This document shows positions 52,092 through 58,613 of a DNA stretch of 64,000 bases, one piece after another. A program made the translations under genes and the position numbers. The notes under the pieces were generated by a model. It was not told where the DNA came from. It saw only the letters and a program-made list of their open reading frames with translations, and made no database searches. Source of the stretch: Winogradskyella sp. (lineage in GTDB: Bacteria; Bacteroidota; Bacteroidia; Flavobacteriales; Flavobacteriaceae); the NCBI GenBank assembly GCA_002722255.1, contig PBLD01000001.1, positions 998,311-1,062,310 on the forward strand, read 5' to 3'. Position 1 is the stretch's first letter. Each line of letters opens with the position of its first letter.

Positions 52092-52104
52092 ATAAAGATT
52101 TGTT

Positions 52105-52126
52105 ATTCCTACTTAGGTTGGAATCT
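52105..52126. repeat. Degenerate hairpin of the interspersed palindrome family
   Basis: ATTCCTACTTAGGTTGGAAT followed by CT. It resembles the ATTCC...GGAATCT palindromes elsewhere in the cluster, with imperfect arms. Lies in the paaE-paaA gap. Confidence 0.5.
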
Positions 52127-52161
52127 CAATATATATTGAAAAAGAAAAATTAAGTTTCACC

Positions 52162-52196
52162 AGCTAAAAGCAATAAGCTAATAGCCAAAAGCTAAA
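52162..52196 (+). repeat. Heptamer array abutting the paaA start (5 units)
   Basis: Five consecutive 7-base units: AGCTAAA, AGCAATA, AGCTAAT, AGCCAAA, AGCTAAA, followed by AGAA and then the paaA ATG at 52201. Period 7 is continuous. It replaces any Shine-Dalgarno sequence. Confidence 0.85.
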
Positions 52197-52200
52197 AGAA

Positions 52201-53157
52201 ATGAGTGAAGAACAAATAAAAAACCTAGAAGAGCAATTTGAAGAGCGTATCGCTCGCGACGAAAAAATTGAACCTAAAGACTGGATGCCAGAAAAATATC
52301 GTCAAACGCATATTAGGCAAATCAGTCAGCACGCACATTCCGAAATTGTAGGAATGTTACCAGAAGGAAACTGGATTACTCGTGCGCCATCCTTACGTCG
52401 TAAAGTAGCCTTATTGGCAAAAGTGCAAGACGAAGCTGGCCACGGATTATACTTATACAGTGCTTGCGAAACATTAGGAATCTCGCGAGACGAGTTATAC
52501 GAACAATTGCATTCAGGTAAGGCAAAATATTCTTCCATATTCAATTACCCAACAGTAACTTGGGCAGATATGGGAGCTATAGGTTGGTTGGTAGATGGTG
52601 CAGCCATTATCAATCAAGTGCCACTTTGCAGTACCTCTTTTGGTCCTTATGCAAGAGCAATGGTGCGCGTGTGTAAAGAAGAAAGTTTTCACCAGCGTCA
52701 AGGTTACGAAATTATGCTAAAGCTTTGTAATGGAACACCGGAACAAAAAGAAATGGCGCAAGATGCACTTAACCGTTGGTGGTGGCCAAGTTTAATGATG
52801 TTAGGTCCAACTGATGATATGTCAGTTCACACCGAACAATCAATGAAATGGAAATTGAAACGAAAAACCAATGACGAGTTACGTCAGCAGTTTATTGACC
52901 AAACAGTGCCACAAGCTGATATTTTAGGATTAACAATTCCAGACCCAGATTTAAAATGGAACGAAGAGCGTCAGAGCTATGATTTCGGAGAAATTGATTG
53001 GGATGAATTCTGGCAAGTCGTAAAAGGTCACGGACCAATGAACAAAGCACGAATGAAAGCAAGAGTTGGCGCTTGGGAACGTGGCGAATGGGTTAGAGAC
53101 GCAGCAATGGCTCACGCAGAAAAACAACAAGAAAGAAAAAACAAACAAGTAGTATAA
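52201..53157 (+). CDS. paaA: Phenylacetyl-CoA epoxidase catalytic subunit
   Basis: 318 aa ferritin-like di-iron oxygenase subunit that epoxidises the aromatic ring of phenylacetyl-CoA. Iron ligands fall in [16 protein letters not shown] and [33 protein letters not shown] and [12 protein letters not shown] are strongly conserved in PaaA. The C-terminus is lysine/glutamine-rich. Full length. The start is preceded directly by a five-unit heptamer array. Confidence 0.95.
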
Positions 53158-53164
53158 TCAGAAG

Positions 53165-53207
53165 GTTAGACTCGAGAAATGAGAAATGTATACTGAAAAA
53201 GTCTAAC
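53165..53207. repeat. Inverted repeat in the paaA-paaB gap
   Basis: GTTAGACT (53165-53172) and AGTCTAAC (53200-53207) form an 8-bp stem around a 27-base loop. The right arm overlaps the first unit of the paaB heptamer array. Confidence 0.6.
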
Positions 53208-53236
53208 ATCTAACATCTAATATCTAATGTCTAATA
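53174..53236 (+). repeat. Heptamer array running through the paaB start codon (9 units)
   Basis: Units in phase: GAGAAAT, GAGAAAT, GTATACT, GAAAAAG, then TCTAACA, TCTAACA, TCTAATA, TCTAATG, TCTAATA. The last five are near-identical. The ATG of paaB (53227) is made by the end of unit eight, so codons 1-3 are repeat-derived. Confidence 0.85.
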
Positions 53237-53517
53237 AAAAGAACTGGCCACTTTGGGAGGTTTTCGTAAGAAGTAAAAACGGATTAGAACATCGTCATTT
53301 CGGAAGTCTTCACGCAGCAGATGCAGAAATGGCTTTAGAAAATGCAAGAGATGTTTACACAAGACGTAACGAAGGCGTAAGCATTTGGGTTGTAGAAAGT
53401 AAGCATATTACAGCATCAAACCCAGAGCATAATGGCGAATTATTTGAACCAGCACAAGACAAGGTGTATCGTCATCCAACATTTTATGATTTACCAGACG
53501 ACGTAAAACATATGTAA
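53227..53517 (+). CDS. paaB: Phenylacetyl-CoA epoxidase subunit B
   Basis: 96 aa small structural subunit of the epoxidase. WPLWEVFVRSKNGLEHRHFG, then SLHAADAEMALENARDVYTR and the end DKVYRHPTFYDLPDDVKHM are diagnostic. The start codon lies inside a 7-base tandem repeat, and the next upstream in-frame start is not better. Confidence 0.94.
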   Translation: MSNKKNWPLWEVFVRSKNGLEHRHFGSLHAADAEMALENARDVYTRRNEGVSIWVVESKHITASNPEHNGELFEPAQDKVYRHPTFYDLPDDVKHM

Positions 53518-53530
53518 CAAAGCAAGGCTT

Positions 53531-53558
53531 TGTCATCCTGAACTCGTTTCAGGATCTC
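53531..53558. repeat. Simple hairpin, outer module of the composite palindrome
   Basis: ATCCTGAA (53535-53542) pairs with TTCAGGAT (53548-53555) around loop CTCGT, then CTC. The same arms enclose a second hairpin in the composites at 54431 and 55078. Confidence 0.8.
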
Positions 53559-53574
53559 TTTATTTATGTTAAAT

Positions 53575-53601
53575 GTCACCTTAGCGCAGTCGAAAGGTCT
53601 C
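53575..53601. repeat. Simple hairpin, inner module of the composite palindrome
   Basis: GTCACCTTAGCGCAGTCGAA then AGGTCTC. Arms ACCTT/AAGGT enclose AGCGCAGTCGA. This core AGCGCAGTCGA recurs inside the composites at 54431, 55078 and 55945. Confidence 0.78.
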
Positions 53602-53614
53602 AATTTGATTAAAA

Positions 53615-54370
53615 ATGAAAAACAAAAACCTATATAACTACATCCTAGGAATCGCAGACAACAGCCTAATTCTCGGTCAGAGATTAGGAGAGCTTTGCGG
53701 TCACGGACCAAGTTTAGAAACAGATATCGCGTGCACTAATATGTCGTTAGATTTATTAGGGCAAGTGCGTAGTTATTATCAATATGCAGCGAAGATAGCC
53801 GGAGATGGTAGAACAGAAGATGATATCGCAATGCTTCGTAAAGAACGCGAATACTTCAATGTGTTATTGGTAGAGCAACCAAATACCGATTTTGGGTACA
53901 CAATGGCAAGACAATTCTTATTCGATGTATATCATTTTTTAATGCTAACCGAATTAGAAAAAAGTACTGATTTAAATCTGTCTGCAATTGCAAAAAAATC
54001 CATCAAAGAAGTGAGTTACCACAAGCGTTTCTCATCCGATTGGATTAAGCGATTAGGAGATGGTACTGAAGAAAGTCATAGTCGTATTCAAACCGCAATA
54101 AATGATTTATGGACGTATACCGATGAGTTATTCCATCAAACCGAAGCTGATAAAGCTATGGTTGCTGAAGGCGTTGGAGTAGATGTTACTAAATTAAAAG
54201 ATGCTTATTACGAAGAAGTAAATGCAGTTTTAGAAGAAGCAACGTTAAGCGTTCCAGAAAGCAAATATTTTCAAAAAGGAGGAAAGCAAGGCATTCATAC
54301 CGAACATATGGGTTACTTGCTAGCCGATTTACAATATATGCAACGCACCTATCCAAATATGGAATGGTAA
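53615..54370 (+). CDS. paaC: Phenylacetyl-CoA epoxidase subunit C
   Basis: 251 aa structural subunit, a ferritin-fold partner that stabilises PaaA but lacks catalytic iron by family knowledge. YILGIADNSLILGQRLGELC, ISYH-like segment EVSYHKRFSSDWIKRLGDGT and the end HTEHMGYLLADLQYMQRTYP are characteristic. Full length. Two hairpin repeats precede it and two follow it. Confidence 0.94.
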   Translation: MKNKNLYNYILGIADNSLILGQRLGELCGHGPSLETDIACTNMSLDLLGQVRSYYQYAAKIAGDGRTEDDIAMLRKEREYFNVLLVEQPNTDFGYTMARQFLFDVYHFLMLTELEKSTDLNLSAIAKKSIKEVSYHKRFSSDWIKRLGDGTEESHSRIQTAINDLWTYTDELFHQTEADKAMVAEGVGVDVTKLKDAYYEEVNAVLEEATLSVPESKYFQKGGKQGIHTEHMGYLLADLQYMQRTYPNMEW

Positions 54371-54373
54371 CAA

Positions 54374-54393
54374 ATTCCTGCGAAAGCAGGAAT
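54374..54393. repeat. Perfect hairpin ATTCCTGC-GAAA-GCAGGAAT
   Basis: 8-bp arms and a GAAA tetraloop, followed by CT. The same palindrome, with loop GAAG, stands before the GIY-YIG gene (59019), and in inverted form after it (59384). Here it has no nuclease gene beside it. Confidence 0.85.
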
Positions 54394-54430
54394 CTAAAAA
54401 AGAGAAATTGAATTTTGTTTAGAAACAATA

Positions 54431-54483
54431 TGTCATCCTGAACTGTCACACTGAGCGCAGTCGAAGTGTTGTTTCAGGATCTC
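54431..54483. repeat. Composite (hairpin-within-hairpin) palindrome, copy 1
   Basis: Outer arms ATCCTGAA (54435-54442) and TTCAGGAT (54473-54480); inside the loop, arms ACACT (54448-54452) and AGTGT (54465-54469) enclose GAGCGCAGTCGA. Ends in CTC. Lies between paaC and paaD. Confidence 0.85.
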
Positions 54484-54568
54484 ATTCGTCAATTCGAGTG
54501 ATTTGTGAAGAATGAACAAATTGTATCGAGAAGCATTTTAGTGAAAATTCCTGTTTTAAGAAAAAATA

Positions 54569-55069
54569 ATGACAACAACGGAGGAGCATATCAACCCAAA
54601 ACTGGTTTCAATTCTAGAGTCTATTTCAGACCCAGAAATCCCAGTATTATCCATTATGGATATGGGTGTTGTGCGTTCTGCTGTTATCGAAAATGATATT
54701 GTAAAAATCGAAATCACACCAACGTATAGTGGCTGTCCTGCAATGGATGTTATCGGAGACGATATCAAGCGCGCAATGCAAAAAGCAGGTTATAAAGCTG
54801 AAGTAGATTTGATTTTACATCCAGCTTGGACAACCGATTGGATTACGCCAAGAGGCAGAAAAGCACTCGAAGATTACGGAATTGCAGCACCATTAGATGC
54901 CGAAGCCGATAAGTCCGTGTTACTAGAAGGAAAACAATTAGTAAAATGTCCGCAATGCGGAAGTAAAAATACAAAAATGGTAAGTCAATTTGGTTCAACA
55001 GCCTGCAAAGCACAATTTCAGTGTGAGGACTGCCAAGAACCATTTGATTATTTTAAATGTTTGAAGTGA
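54569..55069 (+). CDS. paaD: Phenylacetate pathway protein PaaD (MIP18/DUF59 plus zinc ribbon)
   Basis: 166 aa. The N-terminal DUF59 domain (about 8-95): ESISDPEIPVLSIMDMGVV and TPTYSGCPAMDVIGDD. The C-terminal Cys pairs CPQCGSKNT and CEDCQEPFDYFKC form a zinc- or cluster-binding ribbon. By family it helps mature the iron centre of the epoxidase. The 198-base gap before it contains two palindromes and no gene. Confidence 0.93.
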   Translation: MTTTEEHINPKLVSILESISDPEIPVLSIMDMGVVRSAVIENDIVKIEITPTYSGCPAMDVIGDDIKRAMQKAGYKAEVDLILHPAWTTDWITPRGRKALEDYGIAAPLDAEADKSVLLEGKQLVKCPQCGSKNTKMVSQFGSTACKAQFQCEDCQEPFDYFKCLK

Positions 55070-55077
55070 CAACTTGT

Positions 55078-55130
55078 TGTCATCCTGAACTGTCACACTG
55101 AGCGCAGTCGAAGTGTTGTTTCAGGATCTC
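55078..55130. repeat. Composite palindrome, copy 2
   Basis: Identical over its full length to copy 1 (54431-54483): same outer ATCCTGAA/TTCAGGAT and inner ACACT/AGTGT arms. It lies between paaD and paaG. Identity suggests recent spread. Confidence 0.88.
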
Positions 55131-55156
55131 ATTAAGATTAATAATTATAAAAAAAT

Positions 55157-55936
55157 ATGAGTTCAATAGAACTAAAAATAGAAAACAACATAGCCTACAT
55201 CACACTAAACCGACCAGAAGTTTTTAACAGCTTCAACCGTGAAATGGCATTAAACCTACAGCAAGTTTTTGACGATTGCGAAAGTAATTCAGAAGTAAGA
55301 GCAATAGTACTAACCGGAAATGGAAAAGCATTTTGCGCAGGTCAAGACTTAAAAGAAGTGACGAGTCCGGAGTTAAATCCAGGATTCAAGAAAATTCTAG
55401 AAGAGCATTACAACCCAATCATTACCAGAATTAGAAACATTAAGAAACCAATCATTGGTGCGATAAATGGCGTAGCAGCTGGTGCAGGAGCAAACATCGC
55501 ATTGGCTTGTGATATCGTTGTGGCTCACGAAAAAGTAAGTTTCATTCAAGCGTTCAGTTTAATAGGTTTGATTCCTGATAGTGCAGGAACGTTCTTTTTG
55601 CCACGATTAATAGGTTTTCAAAAAGCATCAGCATTAGCGATGTTAGGCGATAAAGTGTCTGCCGATGAAGCTGAAAAAATGGGAATGATTTACAAAGTGT
55701 TGCCATTAGAAAACTTTGAAGAAGACGTGAATAAGTTAGCCTTGAAACTTGCTAATATGCCAACATTAGCTTTAGGGAAAATAAAGGAAGCGTTTAATCA
55801 ATCTTTAACCAATAATTTGGAGGAGCAATTAGCTCTAGAATCAAAATTACAAATAGAAGCAGCCCAAACGAAAGATTACGAAGAAGGTGTTTCAGCATTT
55901 GTAGAAAAACGTAAACCAACTTTTAAAGGAAAATAA
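55157..55936 (+). CDS. paaG: Enoyl-CoA hydratase/isomerase, probable epoxyphenylacetyl-CoA isomerase
   Basis: 259 aa crotonase-fold enzyme. Oxyanion-hole segments are AFCAGQDLKEV and GVAAGAGANIALACDIVVA. LIPDSAGTFFLPRLIGFQKA matches the PaaG type, which isomerises the ring epoxide to the oxepin, rather than PaaF, which hydrates 2,3-dehydroadipyl-CoA. PaaG is preferred by resemblance; a separate PaaF is not in the window. Confidence 0.87.
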   Translation: MSSIELKIENNIAYITLNRPEVFNSFNREMALNLQQVFDDCESNSEVRAIVLTGNGKAFCAGQDLKEVTSPELNPGFKKILEEHYNPIITRIRNIKKPIIGAINGVAAGAGANIALACDIVVAHEKVSFIQAFSLIGLIPDSAGTFFLPRLIGFQKASALAMLGDKVSADEAEKMGMIYKVLPLENFEEDVNKLALKLANMPTLALGKIKEAFNQSLTNNLEEQLALESKLQIEAAQTKDYEEGVSAFVEKRKPTFKGK

Positions 55937-55944
55937 TTTAGGTC

Positions 55945-55998
55945 TGTCATCCCGAAATGTCGCACTGAGCGCAGTCGAAGTGTTGAATACAGGATCTC
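55945..55998. repeat. Composite palindrome, copy 3, decayed outer stem
   Basis: TGTCATCCCGAAATGTCGCA then the shared core CTGAGCGCAGTCGAAGTGTTG and CAGGATCTC. The inner stem and core are kept; the outer arms no longer pair fully (ATCCCGAA versus TACAGGAT). Lies between paaG and the PLP-lyase gene. Confidence 0.8.
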
Positions 55999-56005
55999 AC
56001 CAATT

Positions 56006-56941
56006 ATGAACAAAGAACTTCTCATACAAACCCACCAAAGAATAAAACCATTTATTCACAAAACACCTATGTTAACATCACAATTATTAGATGAAATAGC
56101 AGGTTGTAATGTGTTTTTTAAATGCGAAAACTTTCAGAAAATGGGTGCGTTTAAAATGAGAGGTGCTGCAAACGCGATTTTATCGCTTTCTGATGAAGAA
56201 AGACAAAACGGAGTCGTAACACATTCTTCAGGTAATTTTGCTCAAGCTGTTTCATTGGCAGCTAATAAAATTGGTGTTAAGGCATATATCGTGATGCCAG
56301 AAAATGCGCCACAAGCAAAAAAGAATGGTGTTAAAACCTATGGAGGCGAAATTATAGAATGTGAATCCACAGCCGAAGCGAGAGAGTTCACGGCCAATAA
56401 AATTCAGAAAGAAACCAAAGCCTCATTTCTACATCCATCTAATCAAGATGAAGTCATATACGGCAATGCGACAGCAGCAATGGAGTTGTTAGAGGCGCAG
56501 CCTAATCTTAATGTAGTTATAACCCCAGTTGGAGGTGGTGGATTATTAGCAGGTACAGCTTTAGCTGTTAATCAGTTTACATCAAATTGCAAAATAATAG
56601 GTGCAGAACCAATGGAAGTCGATGATGCGTATCGTTCTTTAAAATCAGGTAAGATTGAAAAAAACGAAAGCACAAATACCATTGCAGATGGTTTAAAAAC
56701 CTATTTAGGCGACCGTAATTTTCCAATTATAAAAACTTTGGTTGATAAAATTATCAGAGTTGAAGAACAAGAAATTAAAGAGGCTATGCGACTCATTTGG
56801 GAACGAATGAAAATAGTTGTAGAGCCGTCAAGCGCAGTAGCTTTTGCGGCTGTTTTAAAGAACAAAGAAGAATTTAAAAATAAAAACGTCGGAATTATCA
56901 TTTCTGGCGGAAATGTAGATGTGAAGAATTTACCATTCTGA
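56006..56941 (+). CDS. PLP-dependent threonine/serine dehydratase or serine racemase-like enzyme
   Basis: 311 aa fold-type II PLP enzyme. PLP Lys is in KCENFQKMGAFKMRGAANAI, the substrate loop is THSSGNFAQAV, and the phosphate loop is VVITPVGGGGLLAGTALA. No ACT regulatory domain, so it is catabolic or racemase-like. It makes 2-oxoacids from Thr/Ser or interconverts Ser isomers. It has no obvious step in phenylacetate degradation, though it is embedded in the cluster. Confidence 0.87.
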   Translation: MNKELLIQTHQRIKPFIHKTPMLTSQLLDEIAGCNVFFKCENFQKMGAFKMRGAANAILSLSDEERQNGVVTHSSGNFAQAVSLAANKIGVKAYIVMPENAPQAKKNGVKTYGGEIIECESTAEAREFTANKIQKETKASFLHPSNQDEVIYGNATAAMELLEAQPNLNVVITPVGGGGLLAGTALAVNQFTSNCKIIGAEPMEVDDAYRSLKSGKIEKNESTNTIADGLKTYLGDRNFPIIKTLVDKIIRVEEQEIKEAMRLIWERMKIVVEPSSAVAFAAVLKNKEEFKNKNVGIIISGGNVDVKNLPF

Positions 56942-56982
56942 TTAACGATTGTAGATTTTTGATGTTAGAATTAAGATTTTAA
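56941..56982 (+). repeat. Heptamer array upstream of the four-helix-bundle gene
   Basis: Units in phase: ATTAACG, ATTGTAG, ATTTTTG, ATGTTAG, AATTAAG, ATTTTAA (pattern ATnnnnG). The first units recur downstream of the gene at 57357. Confidence 0.75.
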
Positions 56983-56997
56983 ACGAATAGTAATATA

Positions 56998-57357
56998 ATG
57001 AGGCCAAATCAGTTAGAAGATAGACTTATTCAATTTGCAATAGATGTTATTCTTTTATGTAAATCTATTGATAAATCCTTTGCTTCCGAGCATTTGACAA
57101 AGCAATTAATTCGTTCAGCGACATCTTCAGCATTGAATTATGGCGAAGCTAGAAGTGGAGAATCTACAAGGGATTTTTTACATAAAATGAAAATTTGTCT
57201 GAAAGAGTTGAGAGAATCTTACATAAATCTTAGAATTCAGAAAGGGGCTAAAATACTTTCAGATGTGCAAAATCTAGAAAAATTAATGAAAGAAAATGAT
57301 GAGTTGATTTCAATATTTGTTTCGAGTATCAAAACAGCGTCAAATAAATTAAAATGA
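56998..57357 (+). CDS. Four-helix-bundle protein (23S rRNA intervening-sequence family)
   Basis: 119 aa. RLIQFAIDVILLCKSIDKSF, SATSSALNYGEARSGESTRD and LRESYINLRIQKGAK match the four-helix-bundle family first known from intervening sequences in bacterial 23S rRNA. The family also includes diversity-retroelement accessory proteins (Avd). Here it stands alone, with no reverse transcriptase and no rRNA, between a PLP-lyase gene and paaH, flanked by directly repeated heptamer arrays. Probably an inserted accessory unit. Confidence 0.88.
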   Translation: MRPNQLEDRLIQFAIDVILLCKSIDKSFASEHLTKQLIRSATSSALNYGEARSGESTRDFLHKMKICLKELRESYINLRIQKGAKILSDVQNLEKLMKENDELISIFVSSIKTASNKLK

Positions 57358-57405
57358 TTAACGATTGGCGATTTTAGAAGTGAAATCAAAAAATCAAAAA
57401 TTTTA
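57357..57405 (+). repeat. Heptamer array downstream of the four-helix-bundle gene
   Basis: ATTAACG, ATTGGCG, ATTTTAG in phase, then AAGTGAA, ATCAAAA, AATCAAA, AATTTTA. GATTAACGATTG (57356) also occurs at 56940, forming a 12-bp direct repeat that brackets the gene; over 20 bases 17 or 18 match. Confidence 0.7.
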
Positions 57406-57424
57406 TGGAAATAACTAAGGAAAA

Positions 57425-57459
57425 TCAAAAATCAAAAATCAAAAATCAGCAATCGACAA
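57425..57459 (+). repeat. Heptamer array abutting the paaH start (5 units)
   Basis: TCAAAAA three times, TCAGCAA, TCGACAA; the last A is the first base of the paaH ATG (57459). An ATG at 57405 in the same frame would translate the array as NQKSKIKNQQST. Confidence 0.85.
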
Positions 57460-58613
57460 TGGTTGTCGGAATAATAGGTTCAGGAACAATGGGAAGCGGT
57501 ATCGCTCAAGTAGCGGCAACTGCTGGTTGTTGTGTAAAATTATACGATACTAACCAAGCGGCTTTAGACAAAGCTAAAGCAAGTCTTGAAAAAATATTAA
57601 ATAGACTCATAGAAAAAGGTCGAATAGATACTGAAGAAAAAAACAGAATTCAGTCAAATATCAGGTATGTCGATAGTGTAAAAGCATTAGCAGATTCAAA
57701 TCTTACGATTGAAGCTATCGTCGAAAATATCGATATCAAGAAGAAAGTCTTTTCAGAATTGGAAAGCTATGTTGCGGAAGATTGTATTATCGCTTCAAAC
57801 ACATCAAGCTTATCCATAGCATCCATAGCATCATCATTGCAAAAACCAGAGCGCTGCATCGGAATTCACTTTTTCAACCCAGCACCATTAATGAAATTGG
57901 TTGAGGTCATTCCAGCAGTACAAACCTCAAAAGAAGTTTTAGATAAGTCTGTTGAAACCATAAAAAGTTGGAAGAAAACAGTAGCTGTTGCCAAGGATAC
58001 ACCAGGTTTTATCGTAAACCGTGTGGCGCGACCATTTTACGGAGAAGCCCTACGTATTTATGAAGAAGGCATTGCTGATTTTGAAACCATTGACCATAGT
58101 TTAAAAACATTGGGAGGTTTCAGAATGGGACCATTCGAATTAATGGATTTTATAGGAAACGATGTTAATTACACAGTAACGGAAACCGTATTTACAGCCT
58201 TTTATTTCGACCCAAGATACAAACCGAGTTTCACACAAAAGCGTTTAAGTGAAGCAGGCTATTTAGGAAGAAAAACAGGAAAAGGTTACTATGATTATTC
58301 TGAAGGTGCTGTAAAGCAAGAACCAAAACAAGATAAAGAATTAGCACAAACCATTTTCGACCGTGTTCTAGTAATGCTCATCAACGAAGCAGCAGACGCT
58401 TTGTTTTTAAACATCGCATCAGCAGAAGATATAGACAACGCAATGACTAAAGGTGTTAATTATCCAAAAGGATTATTAGCTTGGGCAGATGAAAAAGGCA
58501 TTGATTGGTGCGTAGCTAAACTAGATGAATTATACAATGAATATCACGAAGACCGTTACCGTTGCAGTCCATTGTTGCGTAAAATGAATAAAGAAAATAA
58601 AACATTCTTTTAA
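57459..58613 (+). CDS. paaH: 3-hydroxyacyl-CoA dehydrogenase of the phenylacetate pathway
   Basis: 384 aa from the ATG at 57459. The frame opens earlier (ATG 57405), but those 18 residues come from a tandem repeat and the NAD motif VVGIIGSGTMGSGIAQVAA should start at the N-terminus. CIGIHFFNPAPLMKLVEVIP and DTPGFIVNRVARPFYGEAL are the family signatures, and two C-terminal helical domains follow (GRKTGKGYYDYS at the junction). Oxidises 3-hydroxyadipyl-CoA. It overlaps paaI by one base. Confidence 0.92.
   Translation: MVVGIIGSGTMGSGIAQVAATAGCCVKLYDTNQAALDKAKASLEKILNRLIEKGRIDTEEKNRIQSNIRYVDSVKALADSNLTIEAIVENIDIKKKVFSELESYVAEDCIIASNTSSLSIASIASSLQKPERCIGIHFFNPAPLMKLVEVIPAVQTSKEVLDKSVETIKSWKKTVAVAKDTPGFIVNRVARPFYGEALRIYEEGIADFETIDHSLKTLGGFRMGPFELMDFIGNDVNYTVTETVFTAFYFDPRYKPSFTQKRLSEAGYLGRKTGKGYYDYSEGAVKQEPKQDKELAQTIFDRVLVMLINEAADALFLNIASAEDIDNAMTKGVNYPKGLLAWADEKGIDWCVAKLDELYNEYHEDRYRCSPLLRKMNKENKTFF

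Follow-up and report, generated by a model that had tools for sequence, protein, structure and literature searches.

Tandem arrays of 7-nucleotide (nt) units run up to, or through, the start codons of paaA, paaB and paaH in the phenylacetate (paa) operon of Winogradskyella sp. (Flavobacteriaceae). They lie in a stretch of 64,000 nt (assembly GCA_002722255.1, contig PBLD01000001.1, positions 998,311 to 1,062,310), here called the window. We tentatively place these arrays in a class of period-7 intercistronic sequence that occurs across the Bacteroidota sampled and possibly forms intercistronic hairpins coupling neighbouring genes. The arrays, their period, their orientation, the matching of arms within a gap and a hotspot in the paa operon are established. 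An earlier sequence-only reading of the window had seen the start-side arrays and had overlooked an inverted second arm, often 3' of the upstream stop codon. Arrays at starts are reinterpreted here as arms of gap-bridging heptad hairpins, which are often incomplete.

All window features reported here lie on the + strand. An AGCTAAA-like degenerate array at 52162..52198 ends 2 nt 5' of the paaA ATG (52201), a TCTAACA-like array at 53202..53236 spans the paaB ATG (53227), and an AAAATCA array at 57421..57459, composed of four exact units and a decayed tail, touches the paaH ATG (57459). Tandem Repeats Finder bears out period 7 in all three: 5.3 copies with 73% matches at paaA, 5.0 copies with 89% matches at paaB, a clean array, and 4.0 copies with 100% matches in the core of the paaH array (57421-57448). 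The earlier count of exactly five units each is thus only approximate. When the whole window was scanned at lags 2 to 20 (23/28 matches), two sites emerged, paaB and paaH, both at lag 7. At paaH, the array and the gene are also in frame with an ATG further upstream, at 57405; the array, if read, encodes MEITKENQKSKIKNQQST and may be N-terminal coding sequence. A nearly identical array precedes a paaH-like gene of Aequorivita antarctica (locus L046, gap from 11340), a likeness that may reflect N-terminal coding or inheritance or transfer of the array along with the gene.

Enrichment of period 7 extends well beyond these three sites. Six same-genus samples (1.9 Mb) supplied 1,491 predicted starts, for which the regions from -60 to +10 were surveyed. 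Scores of at least 16/21 were reached 12 times at lag 7, as against 2, 3, 2, 5 and 2 times at lags 4, 5, 6, 8 and 9 and 0.7 times at lag 7 in composition shuffles. With at least 15/21, lag 7 was counted 22 times and lag 8 17 times (6.0 and 4.3 in shuffles), and lags 4, 5, 6 and 9 between 6 and 10 times. Lag 7 therefore leads the other lags and the shuffles, as the sequence-only reading had expected, with lag 8 close at 15/21. Inside genes, the latter score was attained at lag 7 in a single one of 1,341 regions. Post-stop regions (n=949) behave like start regions, with 18 cases at lag 7 and 6, 4, 6 and 4 at lags 5, 6, 8 and 9, again at 15/21 or above. Fourfold CTAANNN is present in 38/41 genomes of the genus, the same word at period 6 in 4/41 and at period 8 in 18/41; a reversed-pattern control also matches, because the reversed pattern is another heptamer. 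Two contigs of the window's own assembly (G000:C6:4-63 and G000:C11:4-63, L283) open within CTAACCT repeats, perhaps because the assembly broke at a long heptamer array. Period 8 was also found, in 10 of 178 divergent gaps.

The paa region is a hotspot for such gaps. In the samples, heptad gaps made up 9/62 near paaA (stretches of 11-20 kb around the gene) and 15/450 elsewhere (p 0.001), counting co-directional gaps of 66-250 nt. Among named Bacteroidota loci, the best 80 of 592 confirmed relatives, 26/103 paa gaps and 7/150 other gaps were of this kind (p 2e-6), in counts that were not dereplicated and retain related gaps. With paa included, heptad gaps are more frequent between co-directional genes (51/750) than in other gaps (5/270; p 0.0015).

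At one and the same site, the unit changes between species while the period stays; hence the arrays are not one copied repeat. Relatives carry AGCTAAA-like, ACTAAAC-like or AATCAAA-like arrays 5' of paaA. The paaB start is preceded by five AATCAAC units in Bizionia myxarmorum, by four CTACAAC units in Flavobacterium lacus, by CTCA-based heptads in G016 and G035 (L009, L010) and G027 (L005), and by no array in many other relatives. Further arrays occur at rpsM, rpsK and atpA, genes named by recognition of their translations without a family search, and a genome of another family (G053) has period-8 units 5' of three starts in its paa region. No full-length copy of the paaA, paaB or paaH array gaps was found in 464 kb of the organism's own DNA (of a 3.2-Mb genome), the paaH gap giving short partial matches only. 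Both the claim that this is not one copied repeat and the suggestion of a common process or constraint, made from the window alone, are supported by these comparisons. Slippage growth, put forward in the same place, is a different matter: among the few nearest relatives, which are different species and not strains, array lengths are constant and ongoing slippage was not seen. The paaA array has equal length in the window's own assembly and G036; these two and G025 also share an unchanged paaB array. The gaps at paaA in G025 and at paaB in G027 are wholly different. That the units stand in a fixed phase to the ATG, with A at positions -6 and -13 in agreement with F. johnsoniae preferences, was suggested by the pooled profile only and was rejected. 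The pooled signal arises because homologous paaE-paaA gaps carry it (for G, p 0.003 with them, p 0.2-0.5 without), and 27 heptad gaps outside paa gave p 0.06-0.16.

In many gaps, the start-side array mirrors the sequence behind the preceding stop, as GATT/AATC heptads, TTAG/CTAA or GTAGG/CCTAC. This was assessed by an arm test that assumes no sequence and pairs the first 35 nt of a gap with its last 35 nt. The set comprised 166 dereplicated paa gaps of at least 66 nt, among them proteobacterial-labelled loci such as L095 and L107; shorter gaps, gap types with fewer than six dereplicated members and near-duplicates (8-mer Jaccard similarity of at least 0.25) were left out. Own ends pair at -11.8 kcal/mol, compared to -7.6 when the right end comes from the same gap of another species (p 1e-8), and 62 of the 166 gaps beat at least 90% of their swaps, where 16.6 are expected. 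The matching is thus within gaps, not between species. Little or no gain over swaps was seen for the paaE-paaA and dehydratase-paaH gap types.

Forty of the 166 gaps are heptad gaps, defined by a lag-7 score of at least 14/21 within the last 60 nt; at this threshold lags 5, 6, 8 and 9 give 3, 12, 9 and 0. Their summed own energy is -526 against -307 +/- 24 after permutation, and not one of 20,000 permutations was as good. The same holds with one heptad gap per genome (n=30; 0/20,000), and 59/20,000 permutations were as good for the 14 heptad gaps of Winogradskyella and near genera. Own pairing is stronger than the swapped mean in 28/40. Swaps within a genome, which control for composition, gave p 1.5e-5 for 142 gaps and p 0.007 for 33 heptad gaps. 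Moreover, the left part shows lag-7 periodicity of its own in 40% of heptad gaps compared to 3% of non-heptad gaps. Strong pairing is found in 25/40 heptad gaps, with the stem reaching from a median of 3 nt past the stop to 8 nt before the ATG. This geometry is not specific, as the strong pairers among non-heptad gaps (43/100) show medians of 3 nt and 7 nt, and it is expected of any gap-filling palindrome. The four gaps picked as strongest have fold z scores of -9.75 (L052:12101-12191), -6.27 (L096:10646-10738), -5.25 (L060:9650-9748) and -3.76 (L063:8275-8355). That of L052, in the paa region of Flavobacterium lacus, is a near-perfect 28-bp heptad hairpin with a G/U-rich left and an A/C-rich right arm. 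Right arms, read by eye without a terminator scan, lead into A/C-rich sequence and the ATG, with no T run. Two simpler markers were discarded. Whole-gap folding z proved too blunt as a detector, array and control gaps differing little. Bridging energy alone reached z < -3 in 8% of co-directional, 2% of divergent and 16% of convergent gaps of the same genus; terminator hairpins are expected in the convergent ones, and bridging alone is therefore not specific.

Within the window, paaH fits the proposed hairpin moderately, paaB weakly, and paaA by a right arm alone. In the gap between a four-helix-bundle gene and paaH (57358..57458), the left arm is ttaaCGATTGgcGATTTT, whose pairing partner AAAATCagCAATCG lies at the array end; end-to-end pairing amounts to -14.6 kcal/mol and fold z to -2.05, both computed on 57358-57461. 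The paaA-paaB gap (53158..53226) pairs end to end at -12.2 kcal/mol, its left arm AGA..GTTAGACT, 2 nt past the stop, pairing with AGTCTAAC.TCT at the array start in a block of 8 bp plus 3 bp. The ends of the paaE-paaA gap (52092..52200) pair with only -5.3 kcal/mol (fold z -0.88), and a separate small hairpin, tattcctacttaggttggaatc, is present. The gap 3' of the dehydratase gene (56942..56997) opens with a similar GATT-heptad sequence, TTAACGATTGTAGATTTTTGATG, and its end-to-end pairing is only -5.4 kcal/mol.

Orientation differs between the two gene borders. It was scored on 60 loci (30 from the genus search and 30 of 42 own matches) holding 43 distinct CTAANNN arrays, 14 of which have no gene border within 15 nt and were excluded. 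Within 15 nt of a start, CTAA is in sense in 9/9 arrays; within 15 nt of a stop, TTAG is found in 16/20 (p 7e-5). Since paaB and atpA recur three times each among the nine, and the rpsM/rpsK element described below three times among the 16, this p is too small. The G/T-richer strand of bridging heptad stems is the 5' one in 19/25 (p 0.015), compared to 27/53 non-heptad stems, and the G fraction in heptad gaps is 0.10 at pre-start ends versus 0.20 in the first 35 nt. If a strand-specific mutation bias were the only cause, arrays would be oriented alike at both borders. Opposite orientations are expected from the arms of a hairpin, or from separate composition preferences before starts and past stops.

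One heptad hairpin recurs at ribosomal protein genes. A hairpin about 100 nt long, containing TTAG and CTAA heptads, is present as near-copies in the gaps 5' of rpsK and rpsM (in the window's own assembly at G000:C9, about 78250-78330 and 78715-78800; L298, L301). The TTAG/CTAA pairs hardly vary, unlike the 3-nt spacers. Paired cells make up 97% of the alignment and 18-46% when it is slid, which is compatible with pairing. Covariation as evidence for selection on pairing was ruled out by zero compensatory pairs. A swap test on rpsM-rpsK gaps (p 0.06, 6 sequences) says little because these gaps are homologous, and one on rpsK-rpsD (p 0.04, 18 sequences) is confounded by the S4-Flavobacteria leader.

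How such a gap might act can be outlined as follows. In its complete form, a co-directional gap would be filled by a heptad-phased imperfect inverted repeat whose G/T-richer arm begins a few bases past the upstream stop and whose complement, richer in A/C, stops a few bases short of the next ATG. As a hairpin in the mRNA, it would draw stop and start together. A terminating ribosome would cover or open the left arm and so free the G-poor right arm, which would be a good initiation site independent of a Shine-Dalgarno (SD) sequence; alternatively, it would cross the short hairpin base and reinitiate. Tandem heptads would permit several registers of the arms, and the structure would thereby tolerate fast sequence turnover. 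Bacteroidia ribosomes generally do not use SD sites, and upstream adenines and low structure are favoured, as stated in PMC9976891. Coupling by RNA unfolding and coupling by reinitiation are models that PMC12548453 describes for other systems. From the observed arrays and their matched arms we infer RNA folding in the cell, coupling and selection.

Several results weigh against a coupling hairpin. In the window, a left arm matching the paaA array was looked for in its own gap and none was found, and the whole paaA-paaB gap folds no better than shuffles (z -0.26). The paaE-paaA gap type overall does not exceed shuffles either (-7.3 versus -7.1 kcal/mol), and among its heptad members in Winogradskyella and near genera 10 of 12 end pairings are no stronger than about -9 kcal/mol, so that a right arm could act alone. 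A clear inverted match is seen in only 12/26 heptad paa gaps and 3/7 other heptad gaps of the named loci, and whole-gap fold z averages -2.9 in 17 array gaps compared to -2.0 in 80 control gaps. Outside paa, the co-directional excess is not significant (15/450 versus 3/202, p 0.30), and many arrays sit past stops with no start inside 60 nt. The rpsK copy of the ribosomal element occurs in only 13 of the 33 rpsM-rpsK gaps examined, drawn from several Flavobacteriaceae genera, and its 13 sequences with 22 pairs show no compensatory double change. Finally, a library screen (Chemla et al., as cited in PMC12548453) associated RNA structure past the stop with less coupling.

A neutral origin is a serious rival to the coupling hairpin and nearly as likely. 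Polymerase slippage would make the heptamer arrays, and template switching across a hairpin would mirror them (quasi-palindrome conversion), which explains period and mirroring without function. Arrays would persist in long gaps because a 7-base unit is not sustainable in genes, and orientation would follow from base composition at starts and stops. In most of the genomes surveyed, the long simple repeats found most often were heptanucleotides, and it was proposed that an interaction with the polymerase favours slippage (Mrazek 2007, as reported in PMC4679880). The long pure arrays past stops that have no start nearby, the conserved rpsM-rpsK element devoid of compensatory changes, and the occurrence of period 8 at the three G053 paa starts and in divergent gaps speak for this origin too. 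On the other hand, array length is constant among the few nearest species, and 13 of the 33 gaps examined retain the rpsM-rpsK element with near invariant TTAG/CTAA and variable spacers. Plain slippage would predict neither the flip of orientation between stop side and start side nor the enrichment of paa gaps, about five times richer than others at the same loci.

The remaining explanations appear less probable. Remnants of mobile palindromic elements of REPIN or MITE type, inserted in operon gaps, are an unlikely source, even though a dispersed palindromic repeat of about 55 nt, with copies 89-100% identical, occupies three other gaps of the operon and many non-heptad bridging hairpins resemble such repeats by eye: the window's heptad gaps lack full-length copies in the 464 kb, and gaps differ between sites and species, the rpsM/rpsK near-copies being the exception. 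It is similarly improbable that the array acts alone, as an A/C-rich, G-poor, unstructured leader for SD-independent initiation, an idea of the sequence-only reading. Low G at pre-start ends agrees with it, as do the preference of Bacteroidia for upstream A and low structure (PMC9976891) and the paaA array, which in several relatives keeps place and period without a left arm while its units differ. Such a leader leaves arm matching and post-stop arrays unexplained, and, outside the paaE-paaA gaps, units keep no fixed phase to the ATG. Least probable of all is that each heptamer is read by one monomer of an RNA- or DNA-binding protein, e.g., a cold shock protein. The near invariant tetranucleotide cores and variable spacers of the rpsM-rpsK element would suit it, and MacGregor (2015, PMC4679880) regards members of the S1, Csp and CsrA families as possible binders of TAACTGA arrays. 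A unit that differs even within one genus at one gene makes a sequence-specific binder unlikely.

The closest known system is that of the TAACTGA arrays, which precede start codons in Beggiatoaceae, some Cyanobacteria and five Bacteroidetes; other intergenic heptamer repeats are reported from Gramella, Aequorivita and Elizabethkingia (MacGregor 2015, PMC4679880). As described there, both share period 7, a mostly intergenic position close to the start, mostly one orientation, a general lack of SD sites and ribosomal genes among the targets. The window arrays likewise end a few nt from the start in one orientation, in line with the nine CTAANNN arrays, and their units are AGCTAAA-, TCTAACA- and AAAATCA-like, not TAACTGA. 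In that account, the heptamer of the TAACTGA system is invariable and predicted not to fold by itself, and the main genome yielded just one inverted repeat; in contrast, the arrays reported here have many unit sequences and often a matched inverted arm past the upstream stop. As head-to-tail 7-nt units beyond chance, and in non-coding sequence, they also resemble the heptanucleotide members of simple sequence repeats with 5-11 nt units (Mrazek 2007, via PMC4679880). They differ from these, as summarized in that source, in being short, degenerate and placed at gene borders, with an orientation rule and matched arms. The proposed hairpin would share with RNA-unfolding coupling, in the cases given in PMC12548453, a structure beside the downstream start that a ribosome finishing the upstream gene could open. 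Those cases are individual gene pairs, whereas here a heptad-built, putatively coupling structure recurs across many species without sequence conservation. Among the titles and abstract openings listed by searches of the open-licence literature, none described heptad-phased inverted arrays bridging operon gaps.

Other gaps of the operon contain repeats of a different kind. The palindromic repeat of about 55 nt lies in the paaC-paaD gap (54431..54486), in the paaD-paaG gap (55078..55133, 100% identical to the former copy) and in the gap 3' of paaG (55945..55999, 89% identical), with more copies elsewhere in the sampled 464 kb. REP/REPIN sequences are palindromic intergenic elements too, and repeats of this sort are present in gaps neighbouring the arrays; unlike REP/REPIN, the heptad gaps of the window do not form a family of copies in the 464 kb examined. 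The paaB-paaC gap (53518..53614) is not a heptad gap; it holds hairpins as well as short segments also found at other places in the sampled genome. At gathering score, Rfam gave no match in the window. Elsewhere, two matches were obtained in 7 sources, a Flavo-1 RNA (L063:13674-13741) and an S4-Flavobacteria ribosomal protein leader (L325:1994-2032).

Genes in the window were named by NCBIfam model matches. PaaA (52201..53157; TIGR02156, 530 bits, cut-off 280), PaaB (53227..53517; TIGR02157, 154.5 bits, cut-off 85.45), PaaC and PaaD score above cut-off, and PaaE is 1.5 bits short of its own. The paaH-type 3-hydroxyacyl-CoA dehydrogenase (57459..58613, or from the alternative in-frame start at 57405) reaches 479 bits against TIGR02279 (PaaH), under the cut-off of 669, and passes just the 3-hydroxyacyl-CoA dehydrogenase subfamily model NF006124. 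The four-helix-bundle gene (TIGR02436, 56998-57357) stands between the dehydratase and paaH genes in the window. In G036 and G027 these two genes are close neighbours, and the gap of about 70 nt between them holds a palindromic repeat.

In its widest form the proposal is rather doubtful: heptad-phased stop-start hairpins, unconstrained in sequence, may be a general operon coupling device of Bacteroidota, replacing the SD-based reinitiation of other bacteria, rebuilt repeatedly from heptamer slippage and densest in the phenylacetate operon. Initiation inside operons of Bacteroidota is not fully understood, and a stop-start hairpin would, if true, be a testable answer. If the arrays are neutral instead, they would clearly document a natural process of 7-nt slippage and template switching. 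The period-7, arm-matched signature provides a computational way to find such gaps without sequence conservation.

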